This document shows positions 1,226 to 36,513 of a DNA stretch of 36,603 nt, piece after piece. Under the pieces are notes generated by a model. The model worked only from the letters and a program-made list of their open reading frames with translations. It searched no databases and was not told the DNA's origin. The stretch spans positions 1 to 36,603 of the IMG/VR virus record IMGVR_UViG_3300022752_000194; one strand, 5' to 3'. Positions within the stretch are counted from its first letter, which is position 1, and every line of letters begins with the position of its first letter. Position numbers and translations under genes: made by a program. This DNA comes from a virus.

Positions 1226-1642
1226 ATGCCCCTGCAATCCCCAGAACAGGCCGTGGCGGCAGCCCTGCGGCAAGACCCGACGGTGGCCCTCGTGGTCGGC
1301 GACCGGATCTACCCGGTGCTCGCCCCCTCGACGGCAGCGATCCCGTTCGTCACGTGGCGGCGGCAGGCCGTACAGCGGCAACAGACGCTTTCTGGCCCGA
1401 TGGGAATGCCCACCGTCGTGCTCGCCATCGACTGCTACGCGTTGACCTACGAGGCAGTAAGGGATCTGGCGGACAAAATCCGTCGCGTTCTGGATGGCTG
1501 GGGGCAGCAGAAACTAGGAATAGATATACGGCACGTGAGTCTCGATGGCGAGGCTGACGGGTTCGTGCAATTGGCGGGCGGCGACGCTCCGCCGGTGTAT
1601 AGCGTCACACTCACGTTCTCAATACTCTGGCAGGAGAATTAG
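1226..1642 (+). CDS. Tail terminator / DUF3168-like tail completion protein
   Basis: The 138-aa product follows the DUF3168 layout: an N-terminal helix (EQAVAAALRQDPTVALVVGDRIYP), a PFVTWRR strand, then a helix YEAVRDLADKIRRVLDGW followed by beta strands ending in YSVTLTFSILW. That family caps the tail tube and joins it to the head connector. It follows the gp10-like gene and precedes the tail-tube genes, which is the standard position. The ATG at 1226 is eight bases after the previous stop. The family call is by overall pattern, not a database match. Confidence 0.75.
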   Translation: MPLQSPEQAVAAALRQDPTVALVVGDRIYPVLAPSTAAIPFVTWRRQAVQRQQTLSGPMGMPTVVLAIDCYALTYEAVRDLADKIRRVLDGWGQQKLGIDIRHVSLDGEADGFVQLAGGDAPPVYSVTLTFSILWQEN

Positions 1643-1645
1643 GAA

Positions 1646-2041
1646 ATGGCCGATACGCCGCATGATGGAGTGGGCACAGTCCTCCGGCTGGGAGCGACGC
1701 AGTACACCGTCACGAATATCGTCATTCAGTTCACCGATCCGAACGCCGATGCCGAGAAGATCGACGTTTCGCACTTGGGCCTCACGACCGGCGCGTCGAT
1801 TCTGACGCAGGATCGCCCGCTGCAAGGCTCGGTCTCCGACACCGGACGCACTGTCCAGTTCGACTATCTCGGGAAGTCGATCATCGCGGACGCCTCCACC
1901 GGCACGTGCTCGATCACTGTGGGTGGCACGGCTCTCACCGGGTTTTCGGCGGTGGCGTTCACGGTCAACGCCTCGACCCTCACCCTGGCGACAAACGACG
2001 CGATCCGCGGGCAGGCCACGCTCCGACTCGCCCGCGTCTAG
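1646..2041 (+). CDS. Small major-tail-tube-like protein (first of two)
   Basis: A 131-aa, Thr/Ser/Val-rich, predicted all-beta protein starting MADTPHDGVG with segments such as TNIVIQFTDPNADAEKIDVSHLG and GQATLRLARV. It lies between the tail-terminator gene and the chaperone pair, where the major tail protein is encoded in siphoviruses. AGGAG sits close before the start (1630-1634). Length is at the low end for a tail-tube subunit. No specific family is recognised, so the role rests mainly on position and beta character. The following gene is a second small beta-rich protein, so either could be the tube subunit. Confidence 0.55.
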   Translation: MADTPHDGVGTVLRLGATQYTVTNIVIQFTDPNADAEKIDVSHLGLTTGASILTQDRPLQGSVSDTGRTVQFDYLGKSIIADASTGTCSITVGGTALTGFSAVAFTVNASTLTLATNDAIRGQATLRLARV

Positions 2042-2062
2042 TCGCTGTGACGGAGGCCCGTC

Positions 2063-2383
2063 ATGGCAACAGCGTGCGCGGGAGTTACGGTCACGTGGGG
2101 CGGTCAGAGTCTGCAAGAGGTCGTTGACATCAAGGTCAACGCCGGCGGCTCGCTGCCGATCGGCCGCGACAGCACGTTCTCGCTTGACGCAGGCACTATA
2201 GACATAGCGTGCCTGCACACGGCGAACGTCTCTCTCGCTGAACGTGGACTGAAGAAAACGCTGGCCTTCACGGGCGGCGGTCTGACGTGCTCCACAAAAG
2301 CGGTGTTTCAGACGCTCAACATGGCTGGCAAGTTAAACGACGTTGCACGGTACAACGTCACGTATCGCATTGTCATGGAGTGA
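2063..2383 (+). CDS. Second small beta-rich tail protein
   Basis: A 106-aa product starting MATACAGVTVTWGG, with a VDIKVNAGG strand and ending in VARYNVTYRIVME. It is beta-rich like its upstream neighbour, but the two show no obvious residue-by-residue similarity by eye. Conserved-looking cysteines (residues near 5, 50 and 76) are unusual for tail-tube subunits. Position directly before the chaperone pair makes a tail-tube or tube-decoration role likely. A GGAGG motif (2072 region is internal; CGGAGG lies at about 2050) precedes the ATG. Function is inferred. Confidence 0.5.
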   Translation: MATACAGVTVTWGGQSLQEVVDIKVNAGGSLPIGRDSTFSLDAGTIDIACLHTANVSLAERGLKKTLAFTGGGLTCSTKAVFQTLNMAGKLNDVARYNVTYRIVME

Positions 2384-2387
2384 ACCA

Positions 2388-2732
2388 ATGGCCCTCACGG
2401 CTGAACAGATTCTCGCGGCAGACGATCTCGGGCTCCTCGAGGTCAAGGTCAAGGAATGGAAAGGCAGCGTCTTCATCCGCGTGATGAGCGTGGCGGAACG
2501 CGACGCTTACGAACGCATGTGGATCGGGAAGAAAGAAAGCGGCATTGAGAACTTCCGCACCGAGTATCTGCAGCGGGTTCTCTGTGACGAGACGGGCAAG
2601 CTCCTGTTCACGCGCGAGCAGATCGAGCAACTCGGGAAGAAATCGGCGGCCGTCATGAGCCGGCTCTTCGAGCGTGCGATGAAGCACAACGCGATGAGCG
2701 AGGAGGACGTTGAAGAACTGGGAAAAGGCTGA
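2388..2732 (+). CDS. Tail assembly chaperone, G-like (short, zero-frame product)
   Basis: The start is the ATG at 2388, four bases after the previous stop; upstream codons in frame are a shadow of the tail gene. The 114-aa product (MALTAEQILAADD..EVKVKEWKG..) has the helical, Glu/Lys-rich character of lambda gpG-type chaperones that coat the tape measure before tube assembly. The last codons are GGA AAA GGC TGA. They contain the heptamer G GGA AAA at 2720-2726, so a minus-one slip would join this protein to the next frame as a GT-type fusion. Position just before the tape measure gene is diagnostic. Confidence 0.85.
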   Translation: MALTAEQILAADDLGLLEVKVKEWKGSVFIRVMSVAERDAYERMWIGKKESGIENFRTEYLQRVLCDETGKLLFTREQIEQLGKKSAAVMSRLFERAMKHNAMSEEDVEELGKG

Positions 2733-2750
2733 ACGTCTCGCCGACGAGAC
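2720..2750 (+). promoter_or_regulatory. Programmed -1 ribosomal frameshift site (slippery heptamer plus stem-loop)
   Basis: In the zero frame of the G-like gene the heptamer G GGA AAA occupies 2720-2726 and fits X XXY YYZ; lambda uses the near-identical GGGAAAG. Eight bases downstream is a perfect 6-bp hairpin, GTCTCG at 2735-2740 pairing with CGAGAC at 2745-2750 around a CCGA loop. The zero-frame stop follows at 2730-2732. All three parts of a lambda G/GT-type frameshift element are therefore visible directly in the sequence. Confidence 0.88.
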
Positions 2751-3046
2751 AGTTCATGTTTCGTCTCGCGGGGCACCTGAAGATGACGGTGCGGGAGTTG
2801 TCCGAACGGATGGACTCCCGCGAACTTTCGGAGTGGAGAGCGTACACGCGGTATTACGAGGCGCTGCCTGACTCGTGGGAGGAAACTGGATTGCTCGCAT
2901 CACTGCTGGCGATTCCGTACTCGCAACGAGGCAAGTGCCCGCGAGGGTCTGATTTCGTTCCGTTGGCAAAGCCGCCGCAGCATGAAGCCCAGGCGGCAGA
3001 GGTCGTGAAAGAACTGGCGAAGCAACTCGGGCTGTTAGGGCAGTAG
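2727..3046 (+). CDS. Tail assembly chaperone, T-like extension reached by -1 frameshift
   Basis: This frame is minus one relative to the G-like gene and is open from the slip site to a TAG at 3044-3046. The seam reads RLNVSPTRQF then MFRLAGHLKMTVRELSERM, which continues into MDSRELSEWRAYTRYY. The pattern R(L/I)A..L..T..EL...M...EL.EW is that of the GpT minor tail protein family. An ATG occurs at 2756 but has no plausible ribosome binding site, and the residues before it also fit the family, so production as a frameshift fusion of about 220 residues is favoured over independent initiation. The final segment is Lys/Gln-rich helix. Confidence 0.85.
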
Positions 3047-3048
3047 CA

Positions 3049-6000
3049 ATGGCGACGATTCTCGGGCTAGCGATGAAGATTTCTGCGGACGCCACCGGCG
3101 TCCAGAAATCGCTCACGCCTGTAGAGCGGGCGCTCAATTCGCTTGATCAGCAGGCGAAGACGATCACGAGTTCGTTTGATCGTTTCGCGGGCTCTAGTTC
3201 TGCCGCCGCTGCCGCGCAGGCCAAAGCGGCTGGCGACCTTGAACGGCTCACGCAGCAGCTCCAGACGGGGGCGATCACCGCGCCAGAGTACGCGCGAGCT
3301 TTTGAGGAGCTCGGCAACGCTGTCGATGCGGAGGTTGCTTCGTTTGAGCGTGCAGCCCGCACGATCGAGGCGAACCTCTCACCACTGCAGCGTTATGACG
3401 CGGAAGTGAAGGTACTCGCGCAAGACCTCGAAGCCGGTCGGATTGATCAAGAGACGTTCGATCGTGCTGTAGCCAAGGCCACCGCTACTTTCACAAAGGC
3501 TGAATCAGCAGCCCAAGGGTACGGCAATGCTTTGGAAGGTGCAGGAAAGGGCAATCTAAAGTTCAACGAACTTTCAGGAATCCTCTCTGCGCTGCCCGGC
3601 CCACTTGGAAACGTGGCCGGCAGACTCTCTGGGCTCTCGTCTGCCGGCGAAGGGCTGGCTCGTGTGTTCTCTGGCGGTCTGTCTGGCGGTCTGTCTGCCA
3701 TAGGAACTTCTGTGGCTGGGCTTGTGAATCCGTTCACTTTGGCTGCGGCTGGCGTGGCAGCGTTCGGTGCCGCGGCCACCGCCGTTGTTCGTGGTCTGAC
3801 CACTCTTGAAGATCGCGTTGAGAAACTCGGCAACACAGCAAACAAACTCGGAGTCTCGTTTCGATTCATTCAAGAGCTGGATGATGCCGCTAAGAGAAGC
3901 GGAACAAGCATTGACGCCGTGAGCGGAGCGTTTGGACGCTTGCAAAAGTCTGTGCTTGGCGTTGACGAGGAAAGCAAGGCTGCGCAAAAAGCTCTTGAAG
4001 GAATCGGTCTGACCGCCGACCAACTGCAATCACTGAAGCCAGAAGAGCAGTATTCGTTGATTGCAAAGAGCATCAGTGCGATTGAAGATCCAGCGAAACG
4101 CACGGCAACTGCGATCAATCTTTTTGGTCGATCTGGCGCTGACCTACTGCCGTTTTTCAACAACATCGAAAAGGCTCGTATCGACATCCAGCGATTCAAT
4201 GGAGCCTTGTCAGACGTTGATAGAACACGCATCGACGGGCTTGGAGATGCTTTCGATGCGGTAGCCGTTTCGATTCAGGGATTTGGGCAAGAGCTGCTGA
4301 CTCCGTTCATCGGCATCACGCGATCCATCTCCGAAGGGCTTGCCCCTGCAATCGCTACGTTTGGGCGGAATGTCGGCGCAGTGCTGGACGTTTTTTCTCC
4401 GCTCACAAGTGCGATTGGATTGAGCATCAACCTATTTCTGCAGTTTGGATCAACCGTCGGCAACATTGTTGGAACAGTGCTTGAACCGTTTGCAGCGGCG
4501 GGGCGAACGGTATCCGAAGCATTTGACTTGATAAGCCAAGCGGCAACATCGGTTTTTGGTCGAGTCAACGATGCCGTGATCGGCTTTCGCGAGTTCTTCC
4601 AGTTTGAAGGCGTAGCCGCATCGTTCCGCGACACGTTTGCACAGATCGGTGAGGTGATCAGCCGCGTCTCGACGATTGTCACGACGGCTATCGGCAAACT
4701 TGGAGAAGTGATTGGCAGCACTCTTGGCAACGCCATCACGTTCGTAACAGATACGGTTTCTGCATTCACAGAATTCGTCGGATTGTCTGGAGTCATTGAA
4801 ACGATTGGCACAGTTATCGGACGCGTGTTCGGATCTGTCTCTTCAGTGTTCAGCACGATTGCAAACGCGATCGGCGGCACAGTTGGTCGTCTGCTCACGA
4901 TGGCAGAAAACTTTCTTGGAATTGAGCGTTCAGCACAAGACGCGTCGGCTGGCGTTGATAAAGTCACAGAAAGCACTCGGCAACTGACTGAAGAAGAGAA
5001 AAAGAGCTATGCTGAAGTTCAGAAGGCAGTTGCAAGCAGCGGACAAGCCCTCGACAACGCGATCGCAAAAGCCGGCGAGTTCGGTCAGGCTGGCTTCAAC
5101 GCCGCCCTAGAGTTCCAAAACGCGCTTGCCGACTTGAAGGAACAGGCCGACAACAACGAACTGAACGCCGAGCAATACAGTCGAGGCGTGGCCCTTGCGA
5201 CGGCGGAGTTCGACAAACAAGTCGAGACTCTGAAGCGCGTTCAGGAAGAGACTCGCAAGGCGGCGGAAGAGGCGCAGCGGCTCGTCGATGCAGACCGGCA
5301 AGCTTCCGATGCTCTGCTCGAGCAAGCCCGCATCGCTCGTGAGTTCGGCGGCGACAACACGCGTGCGAAGGCTGCGGAAGACGCGCTCGCCGTGGAGCGC
5401 GAGATTGCTCGCGTTCGCAAGGAGGTTGCCGCGGCACGAGATGCAGGCGACTCGCAGGCAGTCATGAACGGTGAAACGCGAATTGCGCAACTGGAAAAAA
5501 TCAAGGTAGAGCAACAAGCAATTGCCGATGGCTCTGCAAAGGCCGCAGCAGATGAAGCAAAGCGTCTTGCCGATCAAGACGAGCGTGTGAATAAGATACT
5601 CGGTGCCAGTCGCGAGCAAACGCAACTTGAACAGCAGATCGCGGACGTGCAGGCAGTTCAGGCCCGCACTGCCCAAGAACTTGCAGCCGCTAGGCTGGCA
5701 GGAAACGAACAAGCAGCAAACGCAGCCGCTGCGAAGTTGTCTCAACTCGATCAACTTCAAGCAAAACTGAACGAAGAACAACAAGCCGTTGAACAGGGAT
5801 TCGGCGAAGGATTCACGAAGGCTTTTGAGCAGACCACCAAAGGTATCGACTCGCTCATCGTCAAGGCGGAGCAGTTCGGAAACGTCGGAGCACTCGCCGC
5901 GCAAGCGTTGCAGGCTGGAATTGAGCAGGCCCAGCAACAGGTGCGTGACGGCATCCTGACCAAAGAGACTTACGATCGCGAGGTCGCAAGGCAGCAAGAC

Positions 6001-14759: not shown

Positions 14760-14852
14760 CCCCCCCCCCCCCCCCCCCCCCCCCTCCCCCCCCCCCCCCC
14801 CCACCCCCCCCACCCACACCACCGCCCGGGGGGTGCCCCCCCCCCCCCCCCC
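14760..14852. repeat. Poly-C low-complexity tracts (possible assembly artefact)
   Basis: Runs of 25, 17, 8 and 17 cytosines are separated by single T or A bases and a short GC-rich interlude (14785, 14803, 14812-14835). This is unlike anything else in the window. Such runs could form i-motif or G-quadruplex structures. They also resemble the poly-G artefact of two-colour sequencing read in reverse complement. Predicted proline- or glycine-only proteins here are not genes. The 14730-14902 stretch otherwise shows no gene. Confidence 0.6.
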
Positions 14853-16952: not shown

Positions 16953-17304
16953 CTATCGCCGCGACTTTGAAACGACTTCGGACTACCGCCGACGGATCGC
17001 TCGCGAGATCGACGATGACGCGGCGCAGCCCGAAGCACCGGTGATTCAGCAGGCTCCAGTGAAGCCGGCAAGCGACCTCGTGAGCGAAACGCTTGAGAGT
17101 CGCGGGGGGATCGTTGAGCGCGTGCGCGTTTACGCGAACGGCACGCGGATCACGTCGTGGTCGTTCGCGGACGGTTGGACGCCGCCCGCTGGCGGCAGCG
17201 ATGGCTTGAAGCCAGGGAGCGCGGCTGCTCGCGCCGCGTTTCAGGCCGGGCGGGAAGAGGAGTACATCGACCGGATGCAGGGACGTTTTGGAGGGGAGTG
17301 GTGA
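16945..17304 (+). CDS. Hypothetical protein (119 aa)
   Basis: ATG at 16945 with GGAGGAG upstream. The N-terminus is charged (MPDYRRDFETTSDYRRRI) and the centre has a VERVRVYANGTRITSW beta segment. The end is a Gly/Ala-rich helix with EEEYIDRMQGRFGGEW. Its stop shares a base with the start of the large fusion gene. No family recognised. Confidence 0.55.
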   Translation: MPDYRRDFETTSDYRRRIAREIDDDAAQPEAPVIQQAPVKPASDLVSETLESRGGIVERVRVYANGTRITSWSFADGWTPPAGGSDGLKPGSAAARAAFQAGREEEYIDRMQGRFGGEW

Positions 17305-19490
17305 TGCGAAGGCTTCTGGTTGAGCGATACAAGCCGAAACTCACCGTGTCGAGTAATCGCAAGGGCGTGATCGACATCGACACCGTAAAAGGCTGCACGC
17401 TTGGAATGAAAGCCAGACCCAACGGCGGATGTTACGGGCACTGCTACGCCAACAAAACTGCCGAACTGTACGGCTTTGATTTTCCGACCAGCGTTAGTAG
17501 GCAGATTGACGAACGAGAAAAGCAGGTGATCGAGCGTCAACTGATGGCTCATCCGGCGACGTGGTTTCGCATCGGAAACATGGGAGACCCGTGTCACGAC
17601 TGGGAGCTGACCGTAGAGGCTTGCGAGTGGCTCGGAAAGCTAAAGACGCCGGTTGTGGTTACTAAACACTGGATCAAAGCAACTGATGATCACATGTCGA
17701 GAATGTCCGCCGCTGGGGTCGTGCTCAACACTTCAGTATCAGCGTTGGACACGCCAGCGGAGTTGCACGTCAGGCTTCGCGAGTGGAGACGTGCTACTGA
17801 CTTTGGCATGCGGTCTTTGCTTCGGGTTGTTTCGTGCAAGTTTGGCGACACAGAAGAGGGTCGCCGCATGGCAGCAATTCAAGATTCAATTTTTGAAACG
17901 GCCGGCGAGCTAGTAATTGACAATCCCTTGCGAATACCAGCCTCAGATCCGCGAGTCATCGCCGGAGACATCGTGATTGAGCGACACAAAAACCTAGGCG
18001 GCGGTGCGTGGGTGAGCATCCAAAACCATTCCACATACATCGGCACTTGCGAACAGTGCCCCGACCAGTGCGGAGTCCTGGGAGCATTTGAAAGGCAGCA
18101 AGCGATGAAGACTCTTTTGCCATGCGAGACAGTTGAGTGCGTGTACGTCGAACAGGTGCTCGGATCGGAGTACCAAAACGCGATTGCAAAGCTCGCGATC
18201 GAAGACAAGGTTGCCTATCGTGCGGCTCGGAAAAACATGCAGATTCATTCTGCGATCGTGCTCCTTGTTGATGGAGCGTTCACCGGATTTTTCACGTTTC
18301 AAGTCAACCACGAAGCCGGCGAGTTTTGTTTGCTTCAGTCAGCGATGGTGCCGGGCCTCGAAAACAAAGCGCAGTATCAAATGATGGTTGATGCGATCGT
18401 GCAGCGGAACACGTTCGGCTACCCGATGTTTCTGACGTGCAGCACAAAACACAAGCTGGAACGCCCCAGCGTGTTTGAGGGATGCGGTTTTTGGACGTAC
18501 CTAGAACTCAGCGGCTACTGCTACATGGTTCATGGCACCGAACCGCAAGCCAGGCTCAAGCGGTTGGCTCACGCAACCATGACGAACGCCTGGACCACAA
18601 CGCGGGCCGACTGGCTGAAGATGAAGCGCGAGTGGAACGCCAAGATCAACGAAGCCGGGAAGGCGGCCGGAGTTGCCAACGCCACGTATGCGACGCGCGA
18701 TGGCTGCTGGCAGGGAAGCAACGGCATGTCAAATGTCGTGCTAACAGAAAGGGTGATAGAGGGCGACGGCGTCAAGGAAGTTCGCGGTAAGTCGTTCAAC
18801 GGGAACGCTTCTGTTCTTGACCCGGTGGCATGCGAGACGATCCTGCGTTTTTTTATGCCCAGCGGTGGCCGCCGCGTTTACAACCCGTTCGGAGGCGGCG
18901 TTCAGTTTGGGTTTGTCACGGCGTCATATGGTTTGGAATACGTCGCCAGCGAGATTCGAAAGAACCAGTGCGACGCCAATAACGCGATCTGTTCGCAGTT
19001 GTCATCTGCGACGTGGGTTCAGTCGGACAGCAGTCAGTACACGCCGGAAGGTAAGTTCGACCTCTGCTTCACATGCCCGCCGTATTACCAAGTCGAGGAA
19101 TACCTTGACTACGACGGCAAGCCACCAGCCGGCGAACTGAACAGCCTGCCAACGTACGGCGAGTTCCGGGACATGCTCTTCGCTGGCTATCAGCGTGCGA
19201 TCGACGCATTGGATGACAACCGCTTCTTCGTTGTCATGACAGGCGACTCGCGAGACAAGCACGGCGGATATTACGGGTGCGAAGCGGAGCACGAGCTATT
19301 TTTCCGCGATCGTGGCCTGCATATCTACAACAAGATCGTCTACCTCGAGTGCGAGTTCACAAGGCTCGCTCACGCGAAGGTAACGCTGAACTACCGGAAG
19401 TTCCCGAAGCGAGAGCAAAAGATTCTTGTTTTCTTCAAGGGCGATCCCAAGAAGATCAAGTTGCTGTTCCCGCCGGTGGGGAGGCTGTGA
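17304..19490 (+). CDS. Three-part fusion: radical-SAM-like, GNAT/Mom-like and DNA methyltransferase domains
   Basis: Start chosen at ATG 17304 (728 aa), touching the previous stop. Residues 1-260 carry C31, C43 and C47 (GC..., GGCYGHCYA), a spacing like DUF5131/Gp37-type radical-SAM relatives. Barrel-like strands follow (WFRIGNMGDP, TPVVVTKHW, VVLNTSVSA), then a second cluster CEQCPDQC (249-256). Residues about 285-412 look like a GNAT fold (SAIVLLVDGAFTGFFTF, then MFLTCSTKHKLERPSVFEGCGFW), comparable in outline with phage Mu Mom. Residues about 500-715 are a DNA amino-methyltransferase: motif I-like VYNPFGGG (525-532), ASEIRKNQ, and catalytic motif TCPPYY (590-595). The first 1.2 kb is visibly richer in A/T. 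A DNA hypermodification role is inference. Confidence 0.7.
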   Translation: MRRLLVERYKPKLTVSSNRKGVIDIDTVKGCTLGMKARPNGGCYGHCYANKTAELYGFDFPTSVSRQIDEREKQVIERQLMAHPATWFRIGNMGDPCHDWELTVEACEWLGKLKTPVVVTKHWIKATDDHMSRMSAAGVVLNTSVSALDTPAELHVRLREWRRATDFGMRSLLRVVSCKFGDTEEGRRMAAIQDSIFETAGELVIDNPLRIPASDPRVIAGDIVIERHKNLGGGAWVSIQNHSTYIGTCEQCPDQCGVLGAFERQQAMKTLLPCETVECVYVEQVLGSEYQNAIAKLAIEDKVAYRAARKNMQIHSAIVLLVDGAFTGFFTFQVNHEAGEFCLLQSAMVPGLENKAQYQMMVDAIVQRNTFGYPMFLTCSTKHKLERPSVFEGCGFWTYLELSGYCYMVHGTEPQARLKRLAHATMTNAWTTTRADWLKMKREWNAKINEAGKAAGVANATYATRDGCWQGSNGMSNVVLTERVIEGDGVKEVRGKSFNGNASVLDPVACETILRFFMPSGGRRVYNPFGGGVQFGFVTASYGLEYVASEIRKNQCDANNAICSQLSSATWVQSDSSQYTPEGKFDLCFTCPPYYQVEEYLDYDGKPPAGELNSLPTYGEFRDMLFAGYQRAIDALDDNRFFVVMTGDSRDKHGGYYGCEAEHELFFRDRGLHIYNKIVYLECEFTRLAHAKVTLNYRKFPKREQKILVFFKGDPKKIKLLFPPVGRL

Positions 19491-20702: not shown

Positions 20703-21248
20703 ATGGATGCAGAGCGGACTGGTGGCGATTTCGCCACCGAAGAACAGGCTGCCGAATACCTCGACGGCCTCATCGAGTCTGCCGCAGACCTATTTGCCGT
20801 CAGTCGCGAAGTCGAAGGAACTCACACCTCGCCGCGGCCTGGACAGCAAAAGATCGGAGTCCGAATCGACCGTGTTCTGTATCCGAAACGAAAGCTCCTC
20901 GATGCCGGATGGAGGAGCGGCGTAGTCGGCATTGAGATCAAAAAGTCTGGTCACCCTGCAGGACCGATGGTTGCCCAGGCAGAAGACTACATGCAGTCGG
21001 TCTTCACGTTCTCTTCAGGCATTTCCGTAGTGCTCAACTCGGTTTTCCTATGGCCTGCATTCCCGGCCGCAGGAGTCGCCGCGTCGATCCTTGCCCAGCG
21101 ACGAATCGGGTTCGTTGGTGAGCGGCGCGGGCGGCTGTGCCTGACGCTGAATCACACATTACTTCTTGACTACGCATATGACACGGGCGAGATGCGCGTC
21201 GGCATCGCTGCCAACTTGTCGTGCGGTGGAAAGGTTGGTAGTCGCTGA
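20703..21248 (+). CDS. PD-(D/E)XK nuclease-like protein
   Basis: The start at ATG 20703 has GGAGG at a workable distance; an in-frame TTG at 20643 and an ATG at 20685 are alternatives. The 181-aa product contains RIDRVL (candidate D), GIEIKKSG (E-x-K) and, about 14 residues later, QAEDYM, which fits the QxxxY motif of the Cas4/AddB/lambda-exonuclease-type nucleases. The fold order D, ExK, QxxxY is correct. The gene lies between a winged-helix gene and the primase-helicase, next to recombination genes. Nuclease activity is inferred from these motifs. Confidence 0.55.
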   Translation: MDAERTGGDFATEEQAAEYLDGLIESAADLFAVSREVEGTHTSPRPGQQKIGVRIDRVLYPKRKLLDAGWRSGVVGIEIKKSGHPAGPMVAQAEDYMQSVFTFSSGISVVLNSVFLWPAFPAAGVAASILAQRRIGFVGERRGRLCLTLNHTLLLDYAYDTGEMRVGIAANLSCGGKVGSR

Positions 21249-22990
21249 TGGATACGCTCTCCCAGTGCATTGACTTTCTCGGTGCGATCTTCGAGCCCGA
21301 GGACATCATCGAGTTCCGGCCACTGCCGCCGTCCGCTGGCCGGCGGTGGTCGCCGCTCTCCGAAATCCCCGACATCGTCGAGTGGCTGCATCGCGTCAAC
21401 GCAGACGAGCAGTTGCGCGTGCACGCGTACTTCGGGGCCAACCCCAGGAAGGAGAAGGGTGCCAGCCAAGCTGAAGGCGTGAAGCTGGCCCGCTGCCTGT
21501 TCGCCGACTTCGACGGCGGCACCGACTACGAAGACGCGATGAGCCGCATCAAGGGTGCTGGGCTCCCGTGGCCGACGGCGATCCTCGAAAGCGGCGGTGG
21601 CATTCACGCGTGGTGGCGGCTCGATCAGCCCGTGACCGATGCCGAAGCGTGGCACGTGCGGATGAAGGCGATCGCGGCGGCGCTCGGATCGGATCAGTCG
21701 ATTTGCGATTGGCCGCGAATCATGCGACTGCCCGGGTTCGTGAACTGGAAGCACGAGCAGAGGCCGTACTCGGTGCTGAAAGACTGCGACGCCACCCGCG
21801 TCTATCCGCTCGCGAGGTTCTCGGGCCAAGCCGCCCAGACAATCGTGGTCACGCCGAAGAGCATGAGCGACCTCACGCGGCGGTTCCTCGAGGAAGGCTT
21901 CACGCTCGCGGCTGGTCGCCGGCAGACGATGTTCACGGTGGCTTGCGACTTCGCGGCCCGAGGGTGGGGCGTGGCCGAGGCGACCTCTCTCATCATGGAG
22001 AGGATGCGTCGCGTCGGGCTGCGGTCAGATGACCTTGAAGACTGCCCGCGACAGATCGCGAACGCCTGGAAGCGTGCCCGGCTGCCGGTGCTCGGCAAGG
22101 CCGAAGAGGCGGTGCCGGTTGCGGACGCTATCGACGAGACGCCGACGCCGACGCTGGTGGATGCGATCGACGCTTGGATCAAGCAGGAAGAGACGCCTGC
22201 AATTGCAACCGGCATTCCCGCTCTCGACAAGCTTTTCGACGGCGGGTTGCCGCTCGGGCAGATGACGGCGCTCGCTGCCGCTCCTGGCGTTGGCAAGTCG
22301 GCACTCGCCTTGCAACTGGCGATTCAATGTCTTGTGAACAATCAAGAGACGATTGCGATTTGGTGCCTTGGAGAGATGACACGCGCGGCACTGGCGGCTC
22401 GCGCGATCTGCAACTTTGGCGGACGCGAAAACGGGCTCACGCTTCAGGACGTGATTCACAAGCGACCGCCGTCTCGCGAACTGGGCGTGAAGTTGGCGGG
22501 CACTGTCGGCTTCAGGCTGAAACTTGTCGAGACTCCGCTCGTGATCGACAAGATCGAGCGAGCCGTGATCAAGGACAGCCCGACGCTTCTGATCGTGGAC
22601 TACCTACAGCTTGTTCGTGCGACGCGGCACTTTCAGGACAAGACCGGCGAGATCAACGACTGCCTGCTCAAACTTCGCGAGATCACAACCACGCGAAACA
22701 TCGCGACCCTGCTCGTGACGAATGTTGCGAAGGGGTGCGACGAAAACACAGAAATCGGAAACATCGGGAAGGGGTCGAATCAGATTGACTTCGACGTGGA
22801 CAACCTCCTGTTCGCGTATCGCGTCGGCGAGGTCGGATCGGACGGCGAGATCAAGGTGCAACTGAAGGCGAAGAAGATCCGCCAGGGCCAGATGGCGGAT
22901 GTCGATCTCTGGTTCTTCGGGAAGTACCAAGAGTTCGAGGATGCCGAGATAGCTCCTGAAGACCCTTTCCTAAAGCCTCATGCTCCGTGA
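21248..22990 (+). CDS. Primase-helicase fusion (AEP-like primase, DnaB-like helicase)
   Basis: A 580-aa protein whose ATG shares a base with the previous stop. The N-terminal 170 residues fit an archaeo-eukaryotic/RepB-like primase: FADFDG (DFD 87-89), ESGGGIHAWW (114-123) and WPRIMRLPGFVNWK. A linker of about 150 residues follows. The C-terminal part is a RecA-fold helicase with Walker A APGVGKS (345-351) and Walker B LLIVDYLQL (D451). Such fusions prime and unwind at phage origins. The neighbouring initiator gene and clamp support this. Confidence 0.85.
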   Translation: MDTLSQCIDFLGAIFEPEDIIEFRPLPPSAGRRWSPLSEIPDIVEWLHRVNADEQLRVHAYFGANPRKEKGASQAEGVKLARCLFADFDGGTDYEDAMSRIKGAGLPWPTAILESGGGIHAWWRLDQPVTDAEAWHVRMKAIAAALGSDQSICDWPRIMRLPGFVNWKHEQRPYSVLKDCDATRVYPLARFSGQAAQTIVVTPKSMSDLTRRFLEEGFTLAAGRRQTMFTVACDFAARGWGVAEATSLIMERMRRVGLRSDDLEDCPRQIANAWKRARLPVLGKAEEAVPVADAIDETPTPTLVDAIDAWIKQEETPAIATGIPALDKLFDGGLPLGQMTALAAAPGVGKSALALQLAIQCLVNNQETIAIWCLGEMTRAALAARAICNFGGRENGLTLQDVIHKRPPSRELGVKLAGTVGFRLKLVETPLVIDKIERAVIKDSPTLLIVDYLQLVRATRHFQDKTGEINDCLLKLREITTTRNIATLLVTNVAKGCDENTEIGNIGKGSNQIDFDVDNLLFAYRVGEVGSDGEIKVQLKAKKIRQGQMADVDLWFFGKYQEFEDAEIAPEDPFLKPHAP

Positions 22991-23657
22991 ACTAATGTCA
23001 AAGAATAAGCCACACCATAAGGCCGCATTACGAAGCCGCTGGCGGGAGTTTCTCGCCGACGGCTCCCTTGCCTCGCTTGGGAGCGAAGGCCGCCTGGTGG
23101 CCCTCTACGTGTTCGAGCGGGCCGATTGGTCTACGTGTGAGGTTCGGTTCTCGCTCCGCCGTGCCGCCGAAGCCATGCAGACCCATATCACCACCGTGCG
23201 GAGGGGCATATCCCAACTCGTCGAGGTAGGCGTTCTGGAGGTTTTGGAGCCCGGGAACGGCCGGTCGAGGACAAAATATGTCATCCCGTTGCGCACACGT
23301 AGCGTGCACACCCCGGACACACAGTGTGCGCGCAAGCGCGCACAAGGCGTGCGCGCTCCGGACACGCTACGTGCGCGCAGTGTGCACGAGGCGTGCGCGC
23401 AGCGCGCACATGGCGTGCACACTGCGCGCACAGGCAGTGCGCGCTATTCAGTCTCTCTCAGTGGTACTTCAGTAAGTACCAGTGAGAGTATCAGTGCGGA
23501 GACCGCCGGGGCCGGTGTTGGACCGGCCCGGCGTCTCCGTCTCGATCGGATGCTGAACACGAAGACAGGCGACGGATCGCTGCTTGACCAAGAAACTAAG
23601 ACCACCAAGGCTGAAGAGCCGTTCGGAAAGGAATCCCATGACGAGTCAGCAAGTTGA
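22980..23657 (+). CDS. Putative replication initiator with internal iteron array
   Basis: Opens at ATG 22980 (225 aa), overlapping the helicase by 11 bases; 22995 is an alternative start. Residues about 15-100 form a winged-helix region (SRWREFLADGSLASLGSEGR, RAAEAMQTHITTVRRGISQLVEVGVLEVLEP), the type used by DnaD-like and RepA-like initiators. The middle (about residues 100-155) is a low-complexity Arg/His/Thr/Ala linker because it is encoded by the 22-bp iterons. The C-terminal part is Ser/Thr/Glu-rich. Origin iterons inside the initiator gene match the lambda O design. Initiator function is inferred from this combination. Confidence 0.7.
   Translation: MLRELMSKNKPHHKAALRSRWREFLADGSLASLGSEGRLVALYVFERADWSTCEVRFSLRRAAEAMQTHITTVRRGISQLVEVGVLEVLEPGNGRSRTKYVIPLRTRSVHTPDTQCARKRAQGVRAPDTLRARSVHEACAQRAHGVHTARTGSARYSVSLSGTSVSTSESISAETAGAGVGPARRLRLDRMLNTKTGDGSLLDQETKTTKAEEPFGKESHDESAS
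23291..23444 (+). repeat. 22-bp palindromic iteron array, probable replication origin
   Basis: GTGCGCGC or GTGCACAC recurs at 23304, 23326, 23349, 23371, 23393, 23415 and 23437: spacing of 22 bases (once 23). Between them a reverse half-site (GCGCGCAC, CCGGACAC or GTGTGCAC) follows at 23313, 23336, 23358, 23380, 23402 and 23424. Each unit is thus an inverted repeat GTGCGCGC-N-GCGCGCAC plus a five-base spacer. The array is alternating purine/pyrimidine. It lies within the initiator gene. Confidence 0.8.
23455..23488. repeat. Long inverted repeat beside the iterons
   Basis: The arms CTCTCAGTGGTACTT (23455-23469) and AAGTACCAGTGAGAG (23474-23488) pair over 15 bp with one G-G mismatch around a CAGT loop. 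It starts 11 bases after the last iteron and is less GC-rich than the array, which suits an unwinding or loading element of the origin. Confidence 0.7.
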
Positions 23658-23910
23658 ACTTTCTCCAATCACCCCCCGCCAGCGCGAAGTCTTGGGCTTC
23701 ATCGCCCGGTTCTACGCCGACCACGGGTACGCGGTGACGAACCGCCAGATCTGCAAGCAGTTCAACTTCGCGTCTCCGAACGCTGCGGTGATGCACTTGA
23801 AAGCCCTCCGCCGTCGCGACCTCGTGACATGGCAGCCGGGCGAGGCCCGCACTATCCGACCGACGCAAGCCGGCGTATCGCTTCTGGAAGGGGGTGGCTC
23901 CGATGGCTGA
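23638..23910 (+). CDS. LexA-like N-terminal HTH protein without protease domain
   Basis: ATG at 23638 preceded by AAAGGA. The 90-aa product matches the LexA DNA-binding domain pattern: TPRQREVLGFIARFYADHGYAVT, then RQICKQFNFASPNAAVMHLKALRRRDLV. LexA helices 1-3 are all recognisable. The serine/lysine protease domain of LexA is absent, so it cannot self-cleave and would be a stand-alone regulator, perhaps of the phage early genes or host SOS sites. Confidence 0.75.
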   Translation: MTSQQVELSPITPRQREVLGFIARFYADHGYAVTNRQICKQFNFASPNAAVMHLKALRRRDLVTWQPGEARTIRPTQAGVSLLEGGGSDG

Positions 23911-24358: not shown

Positions 24359-24627
24359 CGATCGAGCAAGTGGTGTGCGTGAGTCTCGGCAGCATTCTTC
24401 AAGCGGTGGTGTTCACCCTTGGAGTGTTCGTAGGAATCTCTTTGACCAAGCGAAAGGAATCCGGTCATGACTACAGCGACGAAGCGGCGCAAGGCCGCCG
24501 GTGTGACGATGGACAGGCAGCAGTTGCTCGCCGCGTTGAAAGACGTTGCGGCGGCGGTTGCAACCAGAGGCCCGAAGCCAATCCTGCAGAACGTCCTTCT
24601 GCACGACGGCCTCATCACGGCGACTGA
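24355..24627 (+). CDS. Small membrane protein overlapping dnaN (90 aa)
   Basis: ATG at 24355 overlaps the preceding stop in ATGA. Residues about 5-32 form a transmembrane helix (VVCVSLGSILQAVVFTLGVF), followed by TKRKES. The frame runs 160 bases into the clamp gene; that second half (RRCDDGQAAVARR...) is an alternate-frame reading of dnaN and may be incidental. The coupling and membrane helix support at least the N-terminal part. Confidence 0.45.
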   Translation: MTIEQVVCVSLGSILQAVVFTLGVFVGISLTKRKESGHDYSDEAAQGRRCDDGQAAVARRVERRCGGGCNQRPEANPAERPSARRPHHGD

Positions 24628-25597
24628 CCTCGAACTGCGGATCGACTGCCACGCAGACTGGCACGACGATCCACTGCTCCTGCCGCACGCGCGGCTGAAG
24701 TCGATCCTCGAGACGGCGACCGGCGATGAGGTGGTGCTGACCAGGGACGGTTCAGCCTGTCGCGTCGAGATCGGTCGCAGCGAGTGGCGGCTGCCGGTGG
24801 AGGACGCTGCCGAGTTCCCGACGTGGGAGCCGGCCAAGCTCGCGACGCTGCCGCGCATCCCGTGCGATCAGTTCGCCCGGGCCGTGCGTAGCGTGGCCTA
24901 CGCGTGCGACACCGAGTCGAGTCGGTTCGCGCTCGGAGCGGTGCAGATTGAGGTGCAGGGCGGCGAGTGCACGCTCGTGGCGAGTGACGGCCGGCGGCTG
25001 TCGGTCGCGCTCATCGAGTTCGATCAGGCTCTCGATCCGGTCGAGGTGCTCGTGCCCGAGCATGCGATTCAGCAGATGGCGGTGATCGCCATGAAGCACA
25101 AGGGCGACGGCACCGCCGTGCAACTCGAAGCCTCGAAGAGCGAGATCGTCGCCACGTTCGACGGGCAAGTTGTGACGGCGAGGCTCATCGAGGGTCGCTT
25201 CCCGAAGTGGCGGGACGTGTTCCCCGAGCGGGATGCGACCGAGCACGTGGTCGAGATCGGTGCCCTCTGGTCCGCGACCAAGGCTGCGGCGATCGTCACG
25301 ACGGAGCAGTCGAAGGGCGTGGATTACACGTTCACGGCGAAGGGGCTGACGCTCCGAGGGCAAAGTTCGGAGAGCGGCGAGAGCAAGGTCGAGTGCGAGA
25401 TCGTGTCGCCCGGCAACCCGGGCACGGTGAAGCTCGATCCTCGATTCGTGTCGGACGTGTGCCGGGCGCTCTCGTCTCTGGACGGCGAGCCGCACGTTCG
25501 GATCTCGACCGCCGGGCCGGGCGACGCCGTGGTGCTGACGTGCGGCGAGGATGACGAGTACCGCAGCGTGATCATGCCGCTCGATCCGGCTGGCTGA
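24467..25597 (+). CDS. dnaN: DNA polymerase III beta subunit (sliding clamp)
   Basis: The 376-aa product has full clamp length. Diagnostic features are the N-terminal MDRQQLLAALKDVAAAVATRG...PILQNVLL, ATDLELRIDC, the SRFALGAVQIEV and VASDGRRLSVA segments, RLIEGRFPKW at the third-domain boundary, and the C-terminal VIMPLDPAG. In the family, three similar domains form a ring dimer around DNA. The ATG at 24467 has AAAGGA upstream; 24509 is an alternative start matching the family N-terminus. A phage-encoded clamp would serve a host or absent phage polymerase. Confidence 0.9.
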   Translation: MTTATKRRKAAGVTMDRQQLLAALKDVAAAVATRGPKPILQNVLLHDGLITATDLELRIDCHADWHDDPLLLPHARLKSILETATGDEVVLTRDGSACRVEIGRSEWRLPVEDAAEFPTWEPAKLATLPRIPCDQFARAVRSVAYACDTESSRFALGAVQIEVQGGECTLVASDGRRLSVALIEFDQALDPVEVLVPEHAIQQMAVIAMKHKGDGTAVQLEASKSEIVATFDGQVVTARLIEGRFPKWRDVFPERDATEHVVEIGALWSATKAAAIVTTEQSKGVDYTFTAKGLTLRGQSSESGESKVECEIVSPGNPGTVKLDPRFVSDVCRALSSLDGEPHVRISTAGPGDAVVLTCGEDDEYRSVIMPLDPAG

Positions 25598-35949: not shown

Positions 35950-36513
35950 ATGGACAGCAACTACGAGCCTTTTCCCAGCAAGACGATCCGCGATTGGGTG
36001 CTTGGCATAGGCGAGTTTTCTGAAGAGAGCCTGCGCAAGTCGCGGGAAGAAACGGCCAAGCGGATGGTTGCCACCGTCATGGAGGCAATGGAGAAACGGT
36101 TGGCAGAGTCGTTTTCTGTGGACGCAAATCATGACGCCGTGCCAGCGGCGAAAGCCCAATCCTGCGAGAAGAGTCGGCCACAGGCCGTGTCCGAACTGGG
36201 GAACCCGGTGCGGCATTCAACGCAGGACGGCACTGGCAACACACCGGAGCCGGTGGCGTGGGCAGTGCGCAAGAAGAATCCGCCGGTTGGCGAGTCTCCA
36301 GTTCTGTGCTGGCGTGAGTCTGATATGCGCAGCGTTGAGAAAAGCCTGCCGGATTGCAAAGTGATTCCTCTCTACCACCAACAGCCGCCCAGCCTCACCC
36401 AAGAGGAGCGGTTGGCGTTGCAGGCGGTGGTCAGCGGAAGCGACGTTCTGAAGTGGCAGGAAATTGAGGCGGTCGTTCGCTCCCTGCTGGAACGGACAGA
36501 AGTGCGCTCTTGA
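35950..36513 (+). CDS. Hypothetical phage protein with PVAWAV...IPLYHQ segment
   Basis: Start chosen at ATG 35950 after GAGAGA; ATG 35920 is in frame. The 187-aa protein has a charged N-terminus (MDSNYEPFPSKTIRDWVLGI), a Ser/Asn/Gln-rich middle and EPVAWAVRKKNPPVGE, SVEKSLPDCKVIPLYHQQPPSLT. The last segment resembles a recurrent element of phage early proteins. Function unknown. About 90 bases after it show no gene. Confidence 0.55.
   Translation: MDSNYEPFPSKTIRDWVLGIGEFSEESLRKSREETAKRMVATVMEAMEKRLAESFSVDANHDAVPAAKAQSCEKSRPQAVSELGNPVRHSTQDGTGNTPEPVAWAVRKKNPPVGESPVLCWRESDMRSVEKSLPDCKVIPLYHQQPPSLTQEERLALQAVVSGSDVLKWQEIEAVVRSLLERTEVRS

Follow-up and report, generated by a model that had tools for sequence, protein, structure and literature searches.

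The origins of lambda and of Stx phages are precedents for iterons that lie within the initiator gene, and each lambda iteron is an imperfect inverted repeat of 19 bp (PMC7466680). In phage SPP1, oriL is located in gene 38, which encodes the replisome organiser gp38, and comprises direct repeats together with an A+T-rich unwinding element (PMC6316719). In iteron plasmids, the initiator contacts short repeats of the unwinding element on one of the two strands (PMC4081077), and RSF1010 has the AEP-type primase RepB' and the ssiA hairpin (PMC4434180).

Here, we present a computational analysis of a repeat array inside a putative initiator gene of IMG/VR virus record IMGVR_UViG_3300022752_000194. 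The stretch of DNA analysed, hereafter the window, is the whole record, which comprises 36,603 bases and is classed as linear. Elsewhere in the window, we noticed two nearly pure intergenic poly-C tracts of 56 and 17 bases (14760-14852), which are possibly a true homopolymer or an assembly artefact, and a 728-aa ORF (17304-19490) whose sole match, a weak one to DNA methylases, lies near the C-terminus.

Results

The array consists of seven 17-bp dyads of the form GNNCAC-N5-GTGNNC that start at 23293, 23315, 23338, 23360, 23382, 23404 and 23426, i.e. with a pitch of 22 bp, once 23 bp. All seven match this motif: GCACAC GTAGC GTGCAC (dyad 1, 23293-23309), GGACAC ACAGT GTGCGC (dyad 2, 23315-23331), GCGCAC AAGGC GTGCGC (dyad 3, 23338-23354, after the sole 23-bp step), GGACAC GCTAC GTGCGC (dyad 4, 23360-23376), GTGCAC GAGGC GTGCGC (dyad 5, 23382-23398), GCGCAC ATGGC GTGCAC (dyad 6, 23404-23420) and GCGCAC AGGCA GTGCGC (dyad 7, 23426-23442). 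The array can also be described as 14 half-sites of alternating orientation, one per 11 bp, and Tandem Repeats Finder gave the same 22-base period. An earlier note on this DNA had recognised seven forward half-sites spaced by 22 bases, once by 23; we recovered these (GTGC[AG]C[AG]C at 23304, 23326, 23349, 23371, 23393, 23415 and 23437), with steps of 22, 23, 22, 22, 22 and 22 bases. The octamers GTGCGCGC and GTGCACAC have no copy outside the array on the + strand of the window. A single stray copy of the dyad motif, GGCCACAGGCCGTGTCC, lies within an ORF at 36176-36192, away from the array, which is approximately the chance expectation.

The same note had taken each forward half-site to be followed by a reverse half-site, so that every unit would be a 17-bp inverted repeat with a five-base spacer. 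This description fits the array only in part: parsed in this way, units 1 and 3 have weaker reverse halves (CCGGACAC), unit 2 spans 18 bp, unit 7 lacks a partner, and a reverse half-site ahead of unit 1 is left unpaired. In contrast, the GNNCAC-N5-GTGNNC parse yields seven full 17-bp dyads and zero orphans. Within the array, both tilings are geometrically identical. In related loci (see below), where a step measures 23 or 24 bp, the additional bases lie between dyads and not within the N5 centre, and half-sites past the array ends are missing in nearly all clusters. Because the CAC-N5-GTG phase gives complete dyads without orphans and places the indels of the relatives between dyads, we prefer this phase; the repeat phase proposed before is off by half a period, and the five bases that were read as a spacer form the centre of the dyad. 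The linker peptide had been expected not to repeat because 22 is not divisible by three. This is nearly correct, with the exception of a weak 22-residue repeat (GVRAPDTLRARSV/GVHTARTGSARYSV) that arises because three 22-bp units make 66 bp.

The proposal that the alternating purine-pyrimidine character favours Z-DNA found no support. While GTGCGCGC alternates in the window, the longest alternating run across the family is just 9-13 bp, and the half-sites GGTCAC/GTGACC of relatives, arranged as GGTCAC-N5-GTGACC, are non-alternating. We therefore assign a chance close to nil to the idea that formation of Z-DNA is the function of these runs.

An initial protein search gave three related loci. A DNA pattern scan for the array identified 48 contigs, some of which have homologous genes, while others have unrelated initiators or genes or simple-repeat tracts. 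Using an alignment of the winged-helix domain alone as the query, we obtained 44 viral loci and, from a Planctomycetaceae metagenome-assembled genome, a single contig. All statistics were restricted to homologues found by protein; the ∼45 homologous loci examined represent 28 clusters below 90% identity, and 23 of these loci are absent from the array-pattern scan, i.e. they were recovered independently of the array. All homologous loci carry the array, mostly with five to seven dyads; the exceptions are L080, which has degenerate units, and L100, which is shortened by a two-dyad deletion (also described as a version with two dyads). Dyad steps in relatives measure 22 bp in 173 cases, 23 bp in 31 and 24 bp in 4. 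Over 175 dyads from the 28 clusters, G-3 is conserved at 99% and C+13 at 98%, and the consensus is the inverted repeat GNNCAC-N5-GTGNNC. Relatives that keep the protein have not lost the 22-bp period, a comparison that the earlier note had singled out: the homologues all retain 22-bp dyads.

The L100 locus (3453-3857) is a natural shortened variant in which the palindrome described below is retained and the downstream reading frame is different. A different helix-turn-helix gene family, present in L016, L021, L026, L040, L047, L049, L055 and L061, has internal GGTGCACGCC-type direct repeats of 22 bp and is possibly an independent case of this pitch. The assignment of a Planctomycetaceae host is tentative because its basis is one 9.8-kb binned contig, and 392 genomes from the phylum of this bin held no further copy.

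The array is genuine, and selection acts on it as DNA and not on the encoded peptide. Among 1000 synonymous recodings of the protein segment encoded by the array, CAC-N5-GTG dyads had a mean of 1.38 and a maximum of 5, compared with 7 observed, and dyad pairs spaced by 22/23 bp had a mean of 0.15 and a maximum of 4, compared with 6 observed. In most relatives, the 22/23-bp pairing also exceeds the recoded maximum. We then compared codons in 14 pairs of close relatives, in which members are shared between pairs so that the pairs are not independent. The array codons differ by 49 nonsynonymous and 16 synonymous changes, and the winged-helix codons by 32 nonsynonymous and 110 synonymous changes. 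Motif bases changed at 2/696 positions, and the remaining array bases at 82/1218. The P-values for these codon and base contrasts are ∼1e-13 to 1e-14 and, as pairs share members, are indicative only. Two observations, the disorder of the encoded tail and the conserved frame order of the last dyads, would agree with the repeat being a protein feature, i.e. a low-complexity disordered linker with coding repeats that arose by chance. We find this hardly credible, given that the array codons are free of protein constraint while the motif bases are frozen, that the dyads are lost on synonymous recoding, and that the period of 22 bp is not divisible by three.

The earlier note had overlooked the segment directly downstream of dyad 7 (23445-23494), which we regard as a putative DNA unwinding element. 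Based on nearest-neighbour stacking, these are the least stable 50 bp anywhere in the window; the equivalent segment is the minimum of its locus in 17/25 clusters and ranks no higher than the 4th percentile in the others. The family mean A+T content is ∼0.27 within the array and 0.56-0.59 just past it. The segment has phased CAGT tetramers at 23449, 23459, 23470, 23480 and 23492, approximately one per helical turn, and the relatives have phased CAGT/CAAT (CANT-like) tetramers in the palindrome arms and loop, ∼10-11 bp apart.

The palindrome in question (hairpin 1; 23455-23488) has the form CTCTCAGTGGTACTT-CAGT-AAGTACCAGTGAGAG, with 15-bp arms, one mismatch and a 4-base loop. Its predicted folding energy is -14 kcal/mol compared with -3.7 for shuffles (z -6.9), and, in clusters that have kept the final dyad intact, its centre is positioned 30.5-34 bp past that dyad. 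In a gap-free alignment of 14 relatives, 13/15 stem pairs are altered on both sides; 44 cells of the stem carry two-sided changes compared with 12.4 in shuffles, and only 6 carry one-sided changes. As lambda also has an inverted repeat beside its A+T-rich tract, the palindrome is not unique in kind; it is unusual in coinciding with the weakest segment and in its compensatory conservation. Single-strand folding is good for both the array and the hairpin, and the covariation of the hairpin would also suit an RNA structure in the transcript that includes both. Nevertheless, we judge this reading highly improbable: the stem changes are nearly all two-sided Watson-Crick swaps, the few G-U steps favour a DNA element over RNA, the dyad pattern is symmetric as in protein-DNA sites, and an Rfam search had no match to any family above threshold.

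A GC-rich stem-loop 2 (HP2; 23509-23529), GGGCCGGT-GTTGG-ACCGGCCC, has no assigned role. In closer relatives, it is usually located ∼79.5 bp past the array, and it has no terminator-like T run. Because many members fold no better than shuffled sequence, we dropped a conserved role for this element. GC skew over the window has no turning point at the array and is uninformative here.

The putative winged-helix initiator gene (22980-23657, + strand), recognised by PHROG, AlphaFold and Foldseek comparisons, encodes 225 aa; an alternative start at M6 (22995) agrees equally well with the relatives. The AlphaFold model has a winged helix at residues ∼12-101 (pLDDT above 90) and a disordered tail (pLDDT 42-57), part of which is encoded by the array. 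The model contains a single winged helix followed by disorder and not the two winged helices of the RepE and TrfA type, and we recognised no helicase-binding domain in the tail. Sequence similarity to annotated initiators is weak: the protein matches PHROG 27344 ("replication initiation protein") with an E-value of 2.6e-4, two family members have weak PHROGs matches to "replication initiation O-like", and a Pfam search with the product gave no match. The best Foldseek match among predicted viral structures is the model of the lambda GpO N-terminal domain (E 3.4e-6); other top matches in this set are phage proteins of the helix-turn-helix type and protein O of Stx phage Min27 (E 4.3e-5). Among solved structures, many winged-helix transcription factors match, with no strong favourite. 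The cultured phages in the collection searched contained no significant homologue, and a relative used as the query gave only weak partial matches; a plasmid search with the replication region gave no match.

Directly upstream of the initiator gene lies a gene for a 580-residue fusion of an AEP-type primase-polymerase and a DnaB-like helicase (21248-22990, + strand; PF16793, E 1.5e-7; PF03796, E 7.8e-21), and its AEP domain matches the PrimPol structure 6zp9 in the PDB (E 1.5e-4). A DnaB-type helicase homologue is present directly upstream of the initiator at every related locus. Downstream, a gene for a protein with a LexA-type DNA-binding domain (23638-23910, + strand; PF01726, E 1e-17) overlaps the end of the initiator gene and is missing from many related loci; the palindrome is kept at loci without this gene, and we therefore rejected it as an operator of the LexA-like protein. 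A DNA polymerase III beta-like sliding clamp is encoded at 24467-25597 (+ strand; PF02767/PF00712/PF02768), and a clamp homologue is found downstream in most loci of the AEP clade with enough flank. Beside the initiator and helicase genes, we recognised no helicase loader, including none of the lambda P type.

Two readings of the array as a binding site with a different function bear on this neighbourhood. The winged-helix fold matches many transcription factors, dyad arrays are able to serve as operators, and autoregulation is frequent among initiators; all this would fit an operator cluster at which a winged-helix repressor roadblocks or autoregulates its own gene and the hairpin is regulatory. 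We consider such a cluster very unlikely, because the array lies > 300 bp into the gene, a sigma-70-like promoter was searched for nearby and not found, the neighbours in relatives are a helicase and a clamp, and the adjacent least-stable segment and the fixed distance of the palindrome would be left unexplained. A winged helix acting on iterons is also a known design of partition systems (TubR/tubC), and on this model the array would be a partition centromere, like the tubC iterons of TubR, and not an origin. That the array is such a centromere appears to us barely plausible: next to the gene, we recognised no partition NTPase among the families searched, the constant neighbours are the helicase and the clamp, and the melting segment suits an origin.

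The N-terminus of the helicase is of three kinds: the AEP domain in the window, a different and longer domain in L081, L085 and L090, and no detected primase domain in L088, L095 and L106. By eye, the longer domain resembles another primase-polymerase. The helicases of L081, L085 and L090 (locus 1547-3475) share the DnaB-like C-terminal domain with those of L084 and the window; their N-terminal domains differ, and the origins are nearly alike. The presence of a RepB-primase/AEP domain in the upstream protein and the strong folding of hairpin 1 raise the question of whether the palindrome is a single-strand initiation site for the primase domain of the phage and the iterons those of an RSF1010-like replicon, by analogy with the ssiA hairpin, which RepB' reads (PMC4434180). 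This idea is weakened by the hairpins of L081 and L084, which are nearly identical despite different helicase N-terminal domains, and by L088, L095 and L106, which keep the palindrome in place with no primase domain detected. We regard it as unlikely, with a small chance of being correct.

Discussion

The conserved array, its selection at the level of DNA, the weak-duplex segment, the covarying palindrome, the gene neighbourhood and the similarity in fold argue that the array and the weak segment are the iterons and unwinding element of a lambda-O-like replication origin located inside the initiator gene of uncultured tailed phages, and we consider this reading very probable. It supports the suggestion of the earlier note that, as in lambda O, a winged-helix initiator gene contains the iterons, based on the fold, the helicase and clamp neighbours and the adjacent putative unwinding element.

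From these sequence and structure comparisons, we infer initiator binding, melting, helicase loading and origin activity as follows. The winged-helix protein would bind the seven dyads, probably as one dimer each, and the 22-bp pitch would place all dimers on the same side of the DNA helix. Once assembled, the complex would strain and melt the weak DNA at 23445-23494, the phage helicase would then be loaded at the melted segment, in this phage together with the primase domain that it carries, and synthesis would be supported by the sliding clamp of the phage. The palindrome and the phased CAGT repeats probably guide strand opening or aid the grip of initiator or helicase on one strand. A more specific version, which we put forward only tentatively and consider rather unlikely, is that the melting segment is a purpose-built palindrome that is extruded on supercoiled DNA or folds on each strand after opening, with the hairpin, fixed in position, and the phased CAGT/CAAT tetramers being read by the initiator or the DnaB domain to load the helicase. 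If this were true, the origin would be opened via DNA secondary structure and not via a simple A+T-rich tract; because the palindrome covaries, the contribution of DNA secondary structure to the opening of the origin can be put to the test.

The array represents a clean case of coding sequence whose evolution is that of a DNA element, with the protein left to drift. Our analysis predicts a replication origin in a large set of uncultured phages, i.e. 28 initiator clusters with one copy in a Planctomycetaceae metagenome-assembled genome, and provides a simple code with which to search for such origins: GNNCAC-N5-GTGNNC per 22 bp, followed by a weak palindrome. Moreover, primase domains have been exchanged while the origin stayed the same, which reveals the parts of the replicon that travel together.

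Among known systems, RSF1010 and the IncQ plasmids use RepC as the iteron-binding initiator and RepA as the helicase. With this system (RepC, RepA, RepB' and ssiA/ssiB), the window shares an initiator, a helicase and an AEP-type primase that are encoded together, and hairpins near iterons; however, the primase and helicase of the window are fused, its iterons lie within a gene, and the hairpin is not matched to the phage's own primase but is independent of primase type across the family. The plasmids RK2 and F similarly have iterons beside an unwinding element with short repeats of its own, but their initiators have two winged-helix domains, whereas one is predicted in the window protein. In Bacillus phage SPP1, repeats and an A+T-rich unwinding element also lie inside the gene of the origin-binding protein; SPP1 differs in using the separate loader gp39 and the host primase DnaG, whereas the helicase of the window has its own primase domain and its repeats are dyads.

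The lambdoid origins, i.e. ori-lambda in gene O and those of the Stx phages P27 and 933W, have inverted-repeat iterons within the initiator gene, an A+T-rich segment beside the iterons and a winged-helix N-terminal fold in the initiator. The window has each of these: repeats within the initiator gene that are putative binding sites, their inverted-repeat form, the A+T-rich segment and an O-type winged-helix fold. In lambda, too, an inverted repeat, ATTCGTCAGA-GAAT-TCTGGCGAAT, is found on the right-hand side of the A+T-rich tract; in the window, by comparison, the palindrome and the melting segment coincide, and compensatory changes maintain the palindrome. The four lambda iterons are spaced by steps of 20, 24 and 23 bp, whereas the window family usually has five to seven at 22 bp. 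Finally, the next genes in the window are those for the helicase and the clamp, and a lambda-P-like loader was not recognised among them; in its iterons, adjoining A+T-rich segment and initiator fold, the locus is like the lambdoid origin.
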